NCBI GenBank assembly: GCA_022729235.1
Contig: JALDAJ010000001.1
Location: forward strand, 762,442-826,441
Length of the DNA stretch: 64,000 nucleotides
From: Candidatus Nanohalarchaeota archaeon
GTDB lineage: Archaea; Nanohalarchaeota; Nanosalinia; Nanosalinales; Nanosalinaceae
Direction of reading: 5' to 3'
Position numbers and translations under genes: made by a program. Position 1 is the stretch's first letter; each line of letters starts with the position of its first letter. This document shows, one piece after another, positions 25,291-61,961 of this stretch. The notes under the pieces were generated by a model. The model did no database searches, was not told the origin of the DNA, and saw only the letters and a list, made by a program, of their open reading frames with translations.

Positions 25291-26523
25291 CTATCTTATC
25301 CGGTACCGGAGTATCGCTGCAACGCCTCCCATGTTGCTGAGTCGTCTGCCTTCTTCGTGGTCGGTGGATATGATTTCGAGCCCGGAGTTCATCTCCTCTG
25401 CTTTCTTACCGAACACGTCCACTATATCGCTGATGGTTTCCAGATCCATCTCATCGTTGCATTCATCGCATTCCATATCTTCCTCTATCTCTGGTTTCTC
25501 CTCGAATACTTCTTTCTCGTGCCCGTTCGGACACTCGTAGCGCGCGAGAAACAGGTCTACATCCTCTGTTATCAGCAGCGTGTCAACCGCACCCATCCCT
25601 AGGGCTTTCTTCACCTGTTCGACGCCGTATTCGCTCTTACCGTTCTCCTCTCTCAGGTTGTCGAAGAACTCGTTGACCAGGTTCTTCTCCTTGACAACTT
25701 CTGCGTCCTGTATCGCGTCCTCCGCCTTGTTCACTAGCTCTTCCAGCGCTTCTTCACCGGAGTAGTTCAGATCCTCCGTCGCAACGACCTCGTCCCGCAG
25801 TTCCTGGTGCAGGTGGTCTTCCATGAACTTTTCCTTCGCGAATCCGGGACCTCCTACGAGTATCCCGAGGAGTTTGTCATCCCTTGCCTTCTGGAGGAGT
25901 GCGTTCTTTGCGTTTTCTGCCACGTCGCCCAGGAAGTTTTTCAGCATCTCTTTCCTGATTCTGGCGAATCTTTGCGCGGATTGACCTCCTGCCCTCGTTT
26001 TTCCGGGTACTTCCGAGGACATTGTGTACTCTGTCTTGATATTCGAGCCCTGGAGGTAGCCTATGGCGGCGTCGTTCTTGTCTACTGCGATTAATCCGTA
26101 GACTTTGTCGGATACGACCATCTGTCTTAGAGGTTCCAGAACGAACTCCTTGTCGCAACGGTAGTGCCGGGACTCGATTGGTTGTGGAGGAACAACCTCC
26201 CATACCTGTATATCCGGTCGTCCTTCCCGTTCCGACACATTTCCTGAGAAGAACGCGACACCGTTCTCAGGTGTTGTATGCTCTTCCTGCACCTTTCTAC
26301 CGATCTTGTCAAGCGCTGCCTGAACATTCTTCCGGGTGTGCTTCGACTTGATGTTCTCCGCCTCTGATGCTTCCGATGTCACGAAGTCTGATATCTTCGA
26401 CATGTCGTACCCTGCGGGGATGTACAGCGACACTAACTCGGTATTCCTGCCTCTGATATCCTCCAGCTGGTTGATGAGCTTCTTCAACTGGTACTTGGTC
26501 ATGGTCTGTGTTTCTTGAGTCAT
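25291..26523 (-). CDS. prf1: Peptide chain release factor aRF1
   Basis: aRF1 recognises all three stop codons and releases the nascent chain, then hands over to ABCE1 (also in this window). Domain 1 contains NIKSKHTRKN with the NIKS stop-reading motif. Domain 2 has KTRAGGQSAQRFARIR with the catalytic GGQ. The C-terminal domain carries a zinc-like CPNGHE...CDEC arrangement. The length of 410 is normal. The start may be the first ATG or the inner ATG before TKYQLKKLI, eight residues later. Confidence 0.97.
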   Translation of the reverse strand: MTQETQTMTKYQLKKLINQLEDIRGRNTELVSLYIPAGYDMSKISDFVTSEASEAENIKSKHTRKNVQAALDKIGRKVQEEHTTPENGVAFFSGNVSEREGRPDIQVWEVVPPQPIESRHYRCDKEFVLEPLRQMVVSDKVYGLIAVDKNDAAIGYLQGSNIKTEYTMSSEVPGKTRAGGQSAQRFARIRKEMLKNFLGDVAENAKNALLQKARDDKLLGILVGGPGFAKEKFMEDHLHQELRDEVVATEDLNYSGEEALEELVNKAEDAIQDAEVVKEKNLVNEFFDNLREENGKSEYGVEQVKKALGMGAVDTLLITEDVDLFLARYECPNGHEKEVFEEKPEIEEDMECDECNDEMDLETISDIVDVFGKKAEEMNSGLEIISTDHEEGRRLSNMGGVAAILRYRIR

Positions 26524-43332: not shown

Positions 43333-43733
43333 ACCAGGTCGAACGCCTCCAGGCATCTCCTCTCCTTTCCAAGGTCTATATCGTAGTCTTGAGGTTTTAT
43401 CCAGCAGCGCTTCCCGTGCTTGTCTTCTCTCAGTTCTAGGTGTTCTTCTAGGTCTTCGTAGTCGTGGGTCGCTCTAACCGGGATTATCTTGAACCCGCCT
43501 GCTTCCCATGAGTCCTCCTTGCTTGATTCGACAGCTTCTATATCAAGTCCCAGCTCTTCTTTTATCTCTCTTTCAGCGGTTTCCGTGAGGTTCTCTCCTT
43601 TCTTCTGCTTTCCGCCGGGAAACTCCCACATCTCATGGTCTACTCTCCACGTTACCAGGTATTCCTCTTCTTCAGAAGTACGGGGTATGACTGTTGCAGC
43701 GACTCTATTAGTATCGTCCGCGTCACTGCTCAT
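43329..43733 (-). CDS. Nudix hydrolase, MutT-like
   Basis: The 134-residue protein has WEFPGGKQKKGENLTETAERE followed by IKEELGLDIE, a full Nudix box with MutT-like spacing. Its start overlaps the end of the ABCE1 gene by eleven bases, and its end overlaps the next Nudix gene by four, so the three genes form a tight minus-strand operon. A role in clearing oxidised nucleotides is possible but unproven. Confidence 0.88.
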   Translation of the reverse strand: MSSDADDTNRVAATVIPRTSEEEEYLVTWRVDHEMWEFPGGKQKKGENLTETAEREIKEELGLDIEAVESSKEDSWEAGGFKIIPVRATHDYEDLEEHLELREDKHGKRCWIKPQDYDIDLGKERRCLEAFDLV

Positions 43734-45513
43734 AGTACTCGCCTTTATCCCTTTGCTCCTTGTCTTTTTGCGAGTCTGGCTTGTTCGAGCGTGGTCTTCC
43801 GGAGTCCGGGTCTTTCCTGTATGTGATGCCGACTTCTTCCAGGAAGGAGTTCATCGCGTCTCCAATTCTCGAGGGTTCGGAAGATTTTCCCTGGATTCCG
43901 GGTTCGCCCTGGAATACAATTCCTCTATCGGAGATGTAGTCGAGGAGTAGGAGGTCGTGGTCAATCACCATCAGAGGTTTCTCTGTCTTCCTCGCGAACC
44001 TTTTCAGTGTCTTTCCAAGTTCCACTCTCGCCTCCACATCGAGATACGCGCTCGGTTCGTCCAGGAGGTAGACTTCTGCGTCCCTCGCCAGACAGATCGC
44101 TACTGCAACTCTCTGCAGTTCTCCGCCGGATAGTTCCTGGAGGTTCTGTTCGTAGTATTTTTCGAGTTTCAGTGGCTCCGCTATCCTTGTCTTGAAACTC
44201 TGGTTTTCTGGGTTGACGTGTTTCCTCAGCGCTTCTTCAACTGTCTCGTCTTCTGGTTCAATGTACTGCGGCTTGTAGGAGATGTCTATGTCTGGTGATT
44301 CACCTTCATCCGGTTTTACGGCGCCGGCAAGCATCTTTGCGAACACGGTCTTACCGAGCCCGTTCTCTCCGAATATCGCCAGTATCTCCTCTTCATGTAG
44401 CTCTCCTTCACTGGTTTCAAGTTCGAACTCTCCTTTGCCGAAGTCTTTGCTGAAAGAGGGGTAATTGAATACTGTCCTGTTGTGTTCGACCTGTGACCTT
44501 TTCGTGCGGTCGAATTTGATCTCGCTGTCCCTGAAGCGGAGGTTGTGGGAGGGTAACATTCCTTCGAGGTACTGGTTGATACCGTTTCTTGCGGTCATGG
44601 AGTTGGAGACCATCCCGTAGCTTCCTGAGTCGCCGTAGAAGATGTGGATGGTGTCCGCGACGAGGTCCAGGGTGGCGAGGTCGTGCTCTACCACCATCAC
44701 TGCTCGGTCTTCTCCCAGTTCCCTGATTTCGCGGGCGACACGTAAACGCTGGCTGACGTCGAGGAACGAGGAGGGTTCGTCTATCATGTATATATCGCGG
44801 TCTTTCAGGAGCGTGGATGCGATCGCCACGCGCTGCAGTTCTCCCCCGGAGAGCTGGTCGAGCTCCCTGTCAAGCAGGTGTTCTATGTCGAGTCTTTCAG
44901 CTATTTCTTCCACGCTGAGCCTTTCACGCGCATTCTCCAGAAGCTCTTTTACCTGTCCGTCGTATGCCTCCGGTATCGCCTCGACTTGCTGAGGTTTAAA
45001 TGCCGCATCTACTTCATTGTTCGCGAGTTTTGTGAAGTGCTCCTGCAGTCCGGTTCCCCGGTACTTCTCCTGTATCTTATCCCAACCAGGAGGGTTCTCG
45101 TAGTCGCCGAGGTTCGGCTTAATCTTTCCCGCAAGTATCTCAAGCGCGGTCGATTTACCTATACCGTTCTCCCCCAGTATTCCGACTACTCGACCCTCCT
45201 CCGGTACAGGTAGTCCGTAAAGCCTGAACGAGTTCTCGGAGAACTGGTGCATCTTCTCGCCTTCTTCATGAGGCAGTTGCACAAGCTTGATCGCGTCCTC
45301 GTAGGGATACTTCTTTATCGCCATCCTGTGAGCTTCCATCACGTCTTCCTCGTCGATATGTAGCTCCTCGTTCTCGATGTAGAAACCGCCTTCTTTACCG
45401 GCGCGGTTCAAAGGGTCGTAGTTGATAACTGTCTCTCTCGCGAGGTCCGGCTCGATCTTGTCCTGGTCTACAACGACGATGAATTTCTTCTGTTTTTCCG
45501 TCGGCATATACAA
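43723..45513 (-). CDS. ABCE1/Rli1 ribosome-recycling ATPase lacking Fe-S cluster cysteines
   Basis: ABCE1 splits ribosomes after termination. Both nucleotide-binding domains are intact: Walker A GENGIGKST (114-122) and GENGLGKT, signatures LSGGELQRVAIAS and LSGGELQRVAVAI, and Walker B regions ending DEPSSFLDVSQR and DEPSAYLDVEAR. The N-terminal domain keeps its ferredoxin-like frame (FIVVVDQDK at the start, DPLNRAGKE, YPYEDAIKLVQLP), yet none of the eight cysteines for the two [4Fe-4S] clusters is present; residues such as Ile20, Ala25, Asp33 and Tyr69 stand in their places. The 596-residue length is normal. First gene of an operon with two Nudix genes. Confidence 0.95.
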   Translation of the reverse strand: MYMPTEKQKKFIVVVDQDKIEPDLARETVINYDPLNRAGKEGGFYIENEELHIDEEDVMEAHRMAIKKYPYEDAIKLVQLPHEEGEKMHQFSENSFRLYGLPVPEEGRVVGILGENGIGKSTALEILAGKIKPNLGDYENPPGWDKIQEKYRGTGLQEHFTKLANNEVDAAFKPQQVEAIPEAYDGQVKELLENARERLSVEEIAERLDIEHLLDRELDQLSGGELQRVAIASTLLKDRDIYMIDEPSSFLDVSQRLRVAREIRELGEDRAVMVVEHDLATLDLVADTIHIFYGDSGSYGMVSNSMTARNGINQYLEGMLPSHNLRFRDSEIKFDRTKRSQVEHNRTVFNYPSFSKDFGKGEFELETSEGELHEEEILAIFGENGLGKTVFAKMLAGAVKPDEGESPDIDISYKPQYIEPEDETVEEALRKHVNPENQSFKTRIAEPLKLEKYYEQNLQELSGGELQRVAVAICLARDAEVYLLDEPSAYLDVEARVELGKTLKRFARKTEKPLMVIDHDLLLLDYISDRGIVFQGEPGIQGKSSEPSRIGDAMNSFLEEVGITYRKDPDSGRPRSNKPDSQKDKEQRDKGEYYEQ

Positions 45514-60449: not shown

Positions 60450-60554
60450 AAAACTTCTGAAACCTGGAACCGTTAATTTTCCGATTCTCTTCACTTTAGC
60501 ATGTGTTTTCTGGTGTAATAGTTCTTTTTGGGAGTGGGTTTTGATGAGTTGTTT

Positions 60555-61961
60555 ATGAGTGAGAGATCGGTTTCGAAATACATTCACGGGAACGTTAGAG
60601 CGCTTAGGGAGTGTGTAGACGAAGCAGGGTTAGAAGTAGAGGACGAGGAATTTCATGGTGTTGTGGAGGCTCTTGAGAGTAATATAAGTTGGCTAGAAGA
60701 AAATTGGGGGTCTGTAGACGAGGAATCCAGTTTGTTCGATTATTCTCATAAGGTGCGGAAGACAGCTAGTGAACTTGATGTATCTATGGAGGAATATGCC
60801 AATGCTGCCTTTGATCATCCGCCATTGTTTTCCTTAAGTCCGGATACTGTTGTGGGTAATGCTTCTGAGATTTCGAATCGTCTAGGTGTTGATGAAGGTG
60901 TTTATGTTGATGCTGCTTTGAAGTTCCCTCCGTTATTTACTCAGAAATCGGATACTGTTGTGGGTAATGTTTCTGAGGTTGCTGATAGTTTAGATATCGA
61001 TAGAAGTGTATATGTTGATGCTGCTTTGAAGTTCCCTCCGTTATTTACTCAGAAATCGGATACTGTTGTGGGTAATGTTTCTGAGGTTGCTGATAGTTTA
61101 GATATCGATAGAAGTGTATATGTTGATACCGCTTTGGATCGACCTCAGCTGTTTTCTCTCAGTCCGGATACTGTTGTGGGTAATGTTTCTGAGGTTGCTG
61201 ATAGTTTAGATATCGATAGAAGTGTATATGCTGATGCTGCTTTGGACCAACCTCAGTTATTTTATCAGAGCCCTGATACTGTTGTGGGTAATGTTTCTGA
61301 GGTTGCTGAGCGCCTAGATATCGATAGAAGTGTTTACATTGATGCCGCTTTATACCATCCTTCTTTACTTACTCATAGCCCTGATACTGTTGTGGGTAAT
61401 GTTTCTGAGGTTGCTGAGCGCCTAGATATCGATAGAAGTGTTTACATTGATGCCGCTTTGGATCATCGATCTTTGTTTTATCAGAACCCTGATACTGTAG
61501 CAGAACATGTGGATTGGGTGTATGCTTTAGAACGTGAGGATGTTATCTCTATACCTTCGGGTTATGATGAATTGAGTGTTGACCCTGAGGTTGAGTATAT
61601 GTGTAAGTCTCCGTTTCTTTTCTCTTTGGCGGATAATAATTTTGAGTTAAGGCTTTACAACGGGCTTTTACTGGACAAAGATCCATATATGAAGAATTTG
61701 ACTGGGACGAAGTATAAGTCTCTTGATGAGCTGGAGAATAAGTTTAGTGTTTTAGATGACATGGCCTGGGATAAGGATTGGAGAGAGCGGTTGAGAGATC
61801 ATCTTCCGAATGGAGGTGATGCGGAGATAGGTAATTATAGGCGTTCTGTAGCTTATGATCAAGAAGTAATTGGAGAGTATCTTCAAAGGCTGGAGAATCA
61901 AACCGGGTTGTCTGCGGAAGTGGCTGAGGAGACCAAGAATCTGATGTCTACAGTAAAATAA
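60555..61961 (+). CDS. mTERF-like helical repeat protein
   Basis: The 468-residue protein (from the ATG at 60555) is built of 36-residue repeats from about residue 85 to 330. A typical unit is SPDTVVGNVSEVADSLDIDR followed by SVYVDAALDHPxLF. The order, a Pro-containing 'hP-LF' helix followed by a helix with Val-Leu spacing, matches mTERF solenoids that bind nucleic acid. The unique C-terminal part contains LADNNFELRLYNGLLLDKDP. Adjacent units are nearly identical in DNA, so the array has expanded or been homogenised recently. The gene is AT-rich compared with core genes and follows the tRNA-Gly repeat tract. Confidence 0.75.
   Translation: MSERSVSKYIHGNVRALRECVDEAGLEVEDEEFHGVVEALESNISWLEENWGSVDEESSLFDYSHKVRKTASELDVSMEEYANAAFDHPPLFSLSPDTVVGNASEISNRLGVDEGVYVDAALKFPPLFTQKSDTVVGNVSEVADSLDIDRSVYVDAALKFPPLFTQKSDTVVGNVSEVADSLDIDRSVYVDTALDRPQLFSLSPDTVVGNVSEVADSLDIDRSVYADAALDQPQLFYQSPDTVVGNVSEVAERLDIDRSVYIDAALYHPSLLTHSPDTVVGNVSEVAERLDIDRSVYIDAALDHRSLFYQNPDTVAEHVDWVYALEREDVISIPSGYDELSVDPEVEYMCKSPFLFSLADNNFELRLYNGLLLDKDPYMKNLTGTKYKSLDELENKFSVLDDMAWDKDWRERLRDHLPNGGDAEIGNYRRSVAYDQEVIGEYLQRLENQTGLSAEVAEETKNLMSTVK
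60843..61490 (+). repeat. 108-bp tandem repeats inside the mTERF-like gene
   Basis: GATACTGTTGTGGGTAATG starts at 60843, 60951, 61059, 61167, 61275 and 61383, exactly 108 bp apart, with a degenerate seventh unit at 61491. Most bases between units 2 and 3 are identical over the full period. The exact 36-codon spacing shows that frame is maintained. Confidence 0.95.

Follow-up and report, generated by a model that had tools for sequence, protein, structure and literature searches.

A ribosome-recycling factor without iron-sulfur ligands: ABCE1 of the Nanohaloarchaeota and the modular loss of cluster cysteines

Introduction

The ribosome-recycling factor ABCE1 (RLI) is a commonly cited reason why iron-sulfur (Fe-S) assembly is held to be indispensable. 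What, then, is to be made of an ABCE1 gene in which every ligand of the two clusters has been replaced? Such a gene lies in a stretch of 64,000 nucleotides (“the window”) from a nanohaloarchaeal genome that is complete in one contig of 1,027,595 bases (1.03 Mb). An initial annotation, made from the DNA letters, had described an ABCE1 with intact ATPase sites and erased cluster ligands, had proposed that the lineage recycles its ribosomes with this form, and had offered weak or absent Fe-S assembly as a possible cause. The analysis reported here makes it quite probable, on the strength of sequence comparison and a predicted model, that the protein is a working ribosome-recycling factor with an N-terminal lever domain that would fold without Fe-S clusters.

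No earlier report of cluster-free ABCE1 in Nanohaloarchaea, DPANN archaea, or haloarchaea was found in a search of mostly freely accessible papers. New here are the modular character of the cluster losses in ABCE1, in which either cluster may go alone; the apparent nanohaloarchaeal origin of the cluster-free form, with transfer to Halorutilales and Halobacteria; and the frequent location of the haloarchaeal copies on plasmids, some of them near Fe-S-repair and metal-stress genes.

An ABCE1 orthologue with two complete ATP sites

The features discussed are collected in Table 1. Over residues 12-595, the window protein matches the NCBIfam equivalog NF009945 with 725.9 bits, the curated cut-off being 469 bits; the likelier start is the ATG at 45507, two codons inside the TTG of the 596-codon open reading frame. 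Both ABC ATP sites are complete, each with Walker A, LSGGE, Walker B, and H-switch, and the earlier description of two intact ATPase sites holds for every motif of the two nucleotide-binding domains (NBDs). Relatives were sampled as 28 genomes of the phylum in five families, f1-f5, with the window genome in f1. By tree, the protein is an ABCE1/RLI orthologue that groups with the ABCE1 of f2 and those of other DPANN archaea. It resembles canonical ABCE1/Rli1 (3bk7, 6tmf) in its full length, its twin NBDs with all motifs, and its predicted fold, and differs in having no cysteine at the eight ligand positions, where a predicted helix and aspartate, histidine, and hydrophobic replacements stand instead. 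It is thus an orthologue without the textbook cofactor ligands rather than a canonical Fe-S ABCE1. Homologues of aRF1, which the window also encodes, are present across the phylum.

Table 1. Positions in the window of the ABCE1 gene, its domains, and the gene for aRF1
Feature	Position	Strand	Basis or remark
ABCE1/RLI gene	43723..45513	-	596 codons from TTG; NF009945 match
N-terminal domain (NTD; former Fe-S domain), 0 Cys	45256..45507	-	alignment and predicted model
NBD1, limits approximate	44620..45200	-	Walker A GENGIGKS (114), LSGGE (221), Walker B IYMIDEP (241), EHDL (276)
NBD2, limits approximate	43900..44400	-	Walker A GENGLGKT (382), LSGGE (461), Walker B VYLLDEP (481), DHDL (518)
aRF1, partner termination factor of ABCE1 in other archaea	25291..26523	-	translation: eRF1-type, zinc ribbon

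Missing ligands and their replacements

The single cysteine of the whole protein is residue 474, in NBD2, and the NTD has none. In the alignment the eight ligand positions (C1-C8) are occupied by I20, A25, V29, D33, V58, H62, A65, and Y69, so that 0/8 are kept, as the initial annotation had claimed. The Pfam family Fer4_RLI does not match the protein, and a search of the entire genome found no Fer4_RLI domain. A general avoidance of cysteine does not explain this, since C-x2-C motifs are kept in aRF1, MetRS, ValRS, and Trm1 of the same window; neither does chance, since the NTD of ABCE1 is free of cysteine in 19/19 genomes of f1 and 2/2 of f5.

In the 2[4Fe-4S] ferredoxin fold, cluster I is bound by C1-C3 together with C8, and cluster II by C4-C7. 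The assignment of ligands in ABCE1 follows from such general knowledge of ferredoxins and from the statement that yeast C25 and C61 ligate different clusters (PMC4523923), which is consistent with these two sets. The cluster II ligands of the window protein are replaced by a D33-P-L-N-R37 motif and an E60-x-H62 loop, and most cluster I ligands by hydrophobic residues. All 28 of the aligned NTD rows of this “DPLN” type have D at C4 and H at C6, and many have E two residues ahead of that H; NTDs of an “SPSN” type have S and D in place of the pair. The invariant D and H in related NTDs suggest a charged replacement of the clusters, along the lines of the salt bridge that had been envisaged from the sequence.

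A sole copy, retained by selection

The complete genome holds no second ABCE1, its two other matches being partial, single-domain ABC ATPases; the only ABCE1 of this lineage is the cluster-free one. Mapped across related genomes, the cluster-free state extends through f1 and f5, and the one genome of f2 has an ABCE1 with all eight cysteines. ABCE1 was not found in the one genome of f3, which is 61% complete, and no ABCE1 of any kind was found in the five metagenome-assembled genomes (MAGs) of f4 (G003-G007), which are 80-91% complete. Archaea without ABCE1 are a possibility in f4, and with five genomes of this sister family seemingly devoid of it, the nanohaloarchaeal lineage may depend less on ABCE1. 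Four of the five f4 MAGs have aRF1, and three of the five have 14-17 radical SAM proteins.

The NTD of the window type is under purifying selection and is retained by it, as judged from its low dN/dS, 0.018 and 0.030 in two close nanohaloarchaeal pairs with unsaturated dS, and from an NTD dN below the NBD dN in most nanohaloarchaeal pairs, several of which have saturated dS.

Fe-S assembly as a cause

Weak or absent Fe-S assembly is rejected as the reason for the loss. Genes of the SUFBD (SufB/SufD) type are present in 21/21 cluster-free nanohaloarchaeal genomes, and none were found in the genomes of f2, with its eight-cysteine ABCE1, or of f3 or f4; SUF thus accompanies the cluster-free protein and is missing where the cysteines are complete. 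Radical SAM proteins also persist, with at least one in every genome of the phylum and one or two in those of f1.

Predicted structure and ribosome contacts

An AlphaFold2 model built from a 38-sequence alignment has a mean pLDDT of 90.5, with 84-92 across most of the NTD, and predicts a helix at residues 20-30 (counted from the ATG), at the former first cysteine loop. Its best matches in the PDB are all ABCE1 (3bk7, E 3.7e-70; 6tmf, 3.7e-62); the rmsd to whole solved chains is high (10-11 Å with 3bk7), a probable effect of domains that are oriented differently in different states. The NTD is predicted to keep the fold and architecture of ABCE1, and the NTD alone matches the canonical NTDs of solved structures weakly (best E 0.035).

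In Sulfolobus solfataricus, the Fe-S domain of ABCE1 contacts uS12 through P25, R28, and S29 and rRNA through R2, K15, N17, E19, and K59 (PMC7196836). In the alignment, the P and R that face uS12 are invariant in the nanohaloarchaeal set and the S position is S or A; the window protein keeps a K-K-x-P element that matches published 30S contacts and is altered at the rRNA contacts R2, K15, N17, and E19 (S. solfataricus numbering).

Cluster ligands are lost one set at a time

The eight ligand positions were surveyed in ~320 ABCE1 loci. Of the 220 distinct full genes retained from these, 147 have all eight cysteines, 27 have none, and 46 show partial loss. Every one of the 46 partial forms lacks cysteines from {4,5,6,7} only or from {1,2,3,8} only, and none from both: 15 are without exactly C4-C7, 15 without exactly C1-C3 and C8, and 16 without part of one set. 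In one more ABCE1, a short fragment, only C2 is gone. The chance that four random losses fall on one of the two ligand sets is 2/70 per event. On an ATPase-domain tree the cysteine states need 17 changes, some of which may be regains, so that the number of losses could be lower; well supported branches force at least five changes for a broken cluster II and at least four for a broken cluster I.

The cluster II ligands are gone in Halorutilales and in some Nanoarchaeota-type archaea, and the cluster I ligands in Woesearchaeota (L115, L123, L130, and others). The cluster-I-only ABCE1 of Halorutilales is the sole copy in four genomes, with C7 also kept in H. salinus. Five Nanoarchaeota-type loci (L397, L398, L399, L400, L422) carry a DPLN..GFH..E-x-H-like NTD signature, as do nanohaloarchaea and Halorutilales; with ATPase domains that branch elsewhere, this shared signature would reflect convergence or domain exchange. 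In the Nanoarchaeota-type phylum of genome G038, ABCE1 was not found at E 1e-100 in 31/194 genomes and scores low in about a dozen, and these genomes may hold further cluster-free forms.

Origin and transfer of the cluster-free form

In a tree of the ATPase domains only, the ABCE1s of f1, f5, and Halorutilales and the cluster-free haloarchaeal copies form one clade (99/97), which adjoins Aenigmatarchaeota and f2, the closest relative with eight cysteines, and the eight-cysteine ABCE1s of Halobacteria branch elsewhere. Halophile composition is unlikely to have made this clade, since the canonical haloarchaeal proteins stay outside it. Within it, the haloarchaeal copies branch inside or beside f5, and Halorutilales is the sister of f1. 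Approximately unbiased (AU) tests, with p values that are optimistic because the grouping was drawn up with an initial tree already in view, reject four hypotheses: vertical inheritance within Halobacteria (p 0.0002), a grouping of Halorutilales with the canonical haloarchaeal ABCE1 (p 0.01), one shared loss of cluster I behind every cluster-free form (p 0.004), and, weakly, a single origin of the haloarchaeal copies (p 0.037). Parallel loss of cluster I presumes a correct tree around compositionally biased halophile sequences. By trees and alignments, the ABCE1 of Halorutilales and the rare second copy of haloarchaea derive by transfer from the nanohaloarchaeal cluster-free form.

A second copy in haloarchaea

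ABCE1 is present in 117/117 Halobacteria genomes sampled, with a second match in five: three are full-length and cluster-free (one of them the center of the search), one is a cluster-free fragment, and one is an unassigned partial match. More full cluster-free copies occur in Halomarina halobia, Haloferax sp. Q22, and genome G161. Eight plasmids carry a cluster-free ABCE1 with 55-69% identity to the Haloferax denitrificans copy, all with cysteine-free NTDs, and two other plasmid matches are canonical. Carriage by phages or viruses was not found in INPHARED, and matches in IMG/VR were distant ABC ATPases only. The canonical haloarchaeal ABCE1s seen (e.g. L138, L153) have a two-residue insertion in the cluster II motif, C-L-G-E-T/S-C-G-I-C.

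Among the neighboring genes in Haloprofundus and Natrinema are those for the Fe-S repair protein Ric or hemerythrin/DUF542 proteins, DUF2249 proteins, a protein with a heavy-metal domain, a P-type ATPase or a multicopper oxidase, ferredoxin, CGCGG peptides, and additional copies of SdhB and TrpRS; the H. denitrificans locus, as read from its sequence, encodes a CGCGG peptide and proteins that resemble DUF2249 and SdhB. Around the cluster-free ABCE1 on other plasmids, this context of Fe-S-repair and metal genes is missing. From the gene neighborhood on a few plasmids, we infer that the plasmid-borne copy may be a spare for conditions in which nitric oxide, copper, or oxidants harm the Fe-S form. 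A yeast study links copper toxicity to the Fe-S supply of Rli1 (PMC5654725). Plasmid or accessory islands at L432, L433, L439, L440, and L189 gather extra ABCE1, SdhB, TrpRS, and ferredoxin beside Fe-S repair and metal genes.

A probable lever without clusters and its alternatives

How might such a domain have come about and how would it work? Cluster II would have been lost first, because Halorutilales, which is sister to f1, has none of the four ligands of that cluster; an ionic or hydrogen-bonded pair, D at C4 and H at C6, would have replaced them. Loss of cluster I would have followed, at least twice on the trees, with mostly hydrophobic packing in its place. Closure of the NBDs, driven by ATP, would then swing the NTD in the direction of uS12 and h44, parting the subunits as in other archaea. 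If the lever completes its cycle in this way, the clusters of other ABCE1s would be structural staples and not chemically active parts.

Counting against a working cluster-free factor, Fe-S clusters are reported to be essential in S. solfataricus and yeast (yeast: PMC4523923). The four altered rRNA contacts, the weak match of the NTD alone, and the five f4 genomes seemingly devoid of ABCE1 also speak against it. The nanohaloarchaeal protein might still bind ribosomes and act in anti-association or initiation but have lost 70S splitting, with recycling by another route. In the systems studied, splitting is reported to depend on the clusters, an ABCE1 from which the entire Fe-S domain is missing still binds 30S transiently (PMC6656783), and f4 has aRF1 without detectable ABCE1, hence another route may exist. 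Yet in most pairs the NTD is under tighter constraint than the NBDs, and the P and R that face uS12 do not vary, both of which fit a working lever, and a protein that no longer splits ribosomes is considered quite unlikely. A further proposal, that D33, E60, and H62 have turned the former cluster II site into another metal site (e.g. for Zn or a mononuclear ion), draws on the invariant D and H of the DPLN type and the E nearby in many rows as possible ligands; but just two ligand-type residues are invariant, and NTDs of the SPSN type carry S and D there instead, which leaves this very unlikely.

The direction of transfer could also be reversed, with the form born in Halobacteria and then passed to Nanohaloarchaeota. 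Both groups share brines, and the haloarchaeal copies are frequently found on plasmids; against this, the form is the universal sole copy in f1 and f5 and only a rare extra in Halobacteria, and the haloarchaeal copies lie within or beside f5, in a clade next to f2 and Aenigmatarchaeota and not to the haloarchaeal ABCE1, so that an origin in Halobacteria is highly improbable. An artifact (misassembly, pseudogene, or decaying paralogue) was rejected, its probability being practically nil given 21 separate and concordant assemblies, an intact frame, a single copy, and purifying selection. For ABCE1 as a whole, the balance leans slightly toward a wider account, in which the clusters are dispensable structural staples that archaea shed repeatedly and one at a time, nanohaloarchaea went on to a recycling factor with no cluster at all, and their form moved to haloarchaea, whose plasmids bear it as a spare that needs no Fe-S when copper, nitrosative agents, or oxidants cause stress.

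Relation to known systems

Some 2[4Fe-4S] ferredoxins have lost one cluster. They resemble the present case in the loss of a cluster from a ferredoxin-like fold with ligands that cross between two motifs, whereas the losses in ABCE1 sit in a translation factor, are repeated, and affect either cluster. Engineered Fe-S mutants and delta-FeS versions of ABCE1 from S. solfataricus and yeast likewise have ligands missing from one cluster or from both, or have no such domain, but these are laboratory variants reported to be defective, and the nanohaloarchaeal form keeps the domain and is natural and fixed. Yeast single-ligand mutants grow only without oxygen, and a double mutant does not grow (PMC4523923). 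Duplicated ABCE genes such as plant ABCE1/ABCE2 (PMC6088178) give two copies per genome, like some haloarchaea; the haloarchaeal second copy is foreign by tree and AU tests, and local duplication in Halobacteria is rejected. No report of cluster-free copies among duplicated ABCE genes was found.

Natural variants with cluster I only, cluster II only, or no cluster make the question of why a ribosome splitter has Fe-S clusters directly testable. A cysteine-free version would also permit thiol labeling of the lever domain, so far blocked by the Fe-S ligands (PMC6656783).

Two minor observations concern other genes. In genomes G012 (L216/L219) and G004 (L217/L220), an insert of ~500 amino acids splits aRF1 in frame near residue 181; with their LAGLIDADG plus Hint or intein-splicing domains, the inserts are inteins that occupy one shared site in two families. 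Within the window, the open reading frame at 60528-61961 consists of repeated “TVVGNVSEVADSLDIDRSVYVDAALKFPPLFTQKSD”-like units and encodes a repeat protein.
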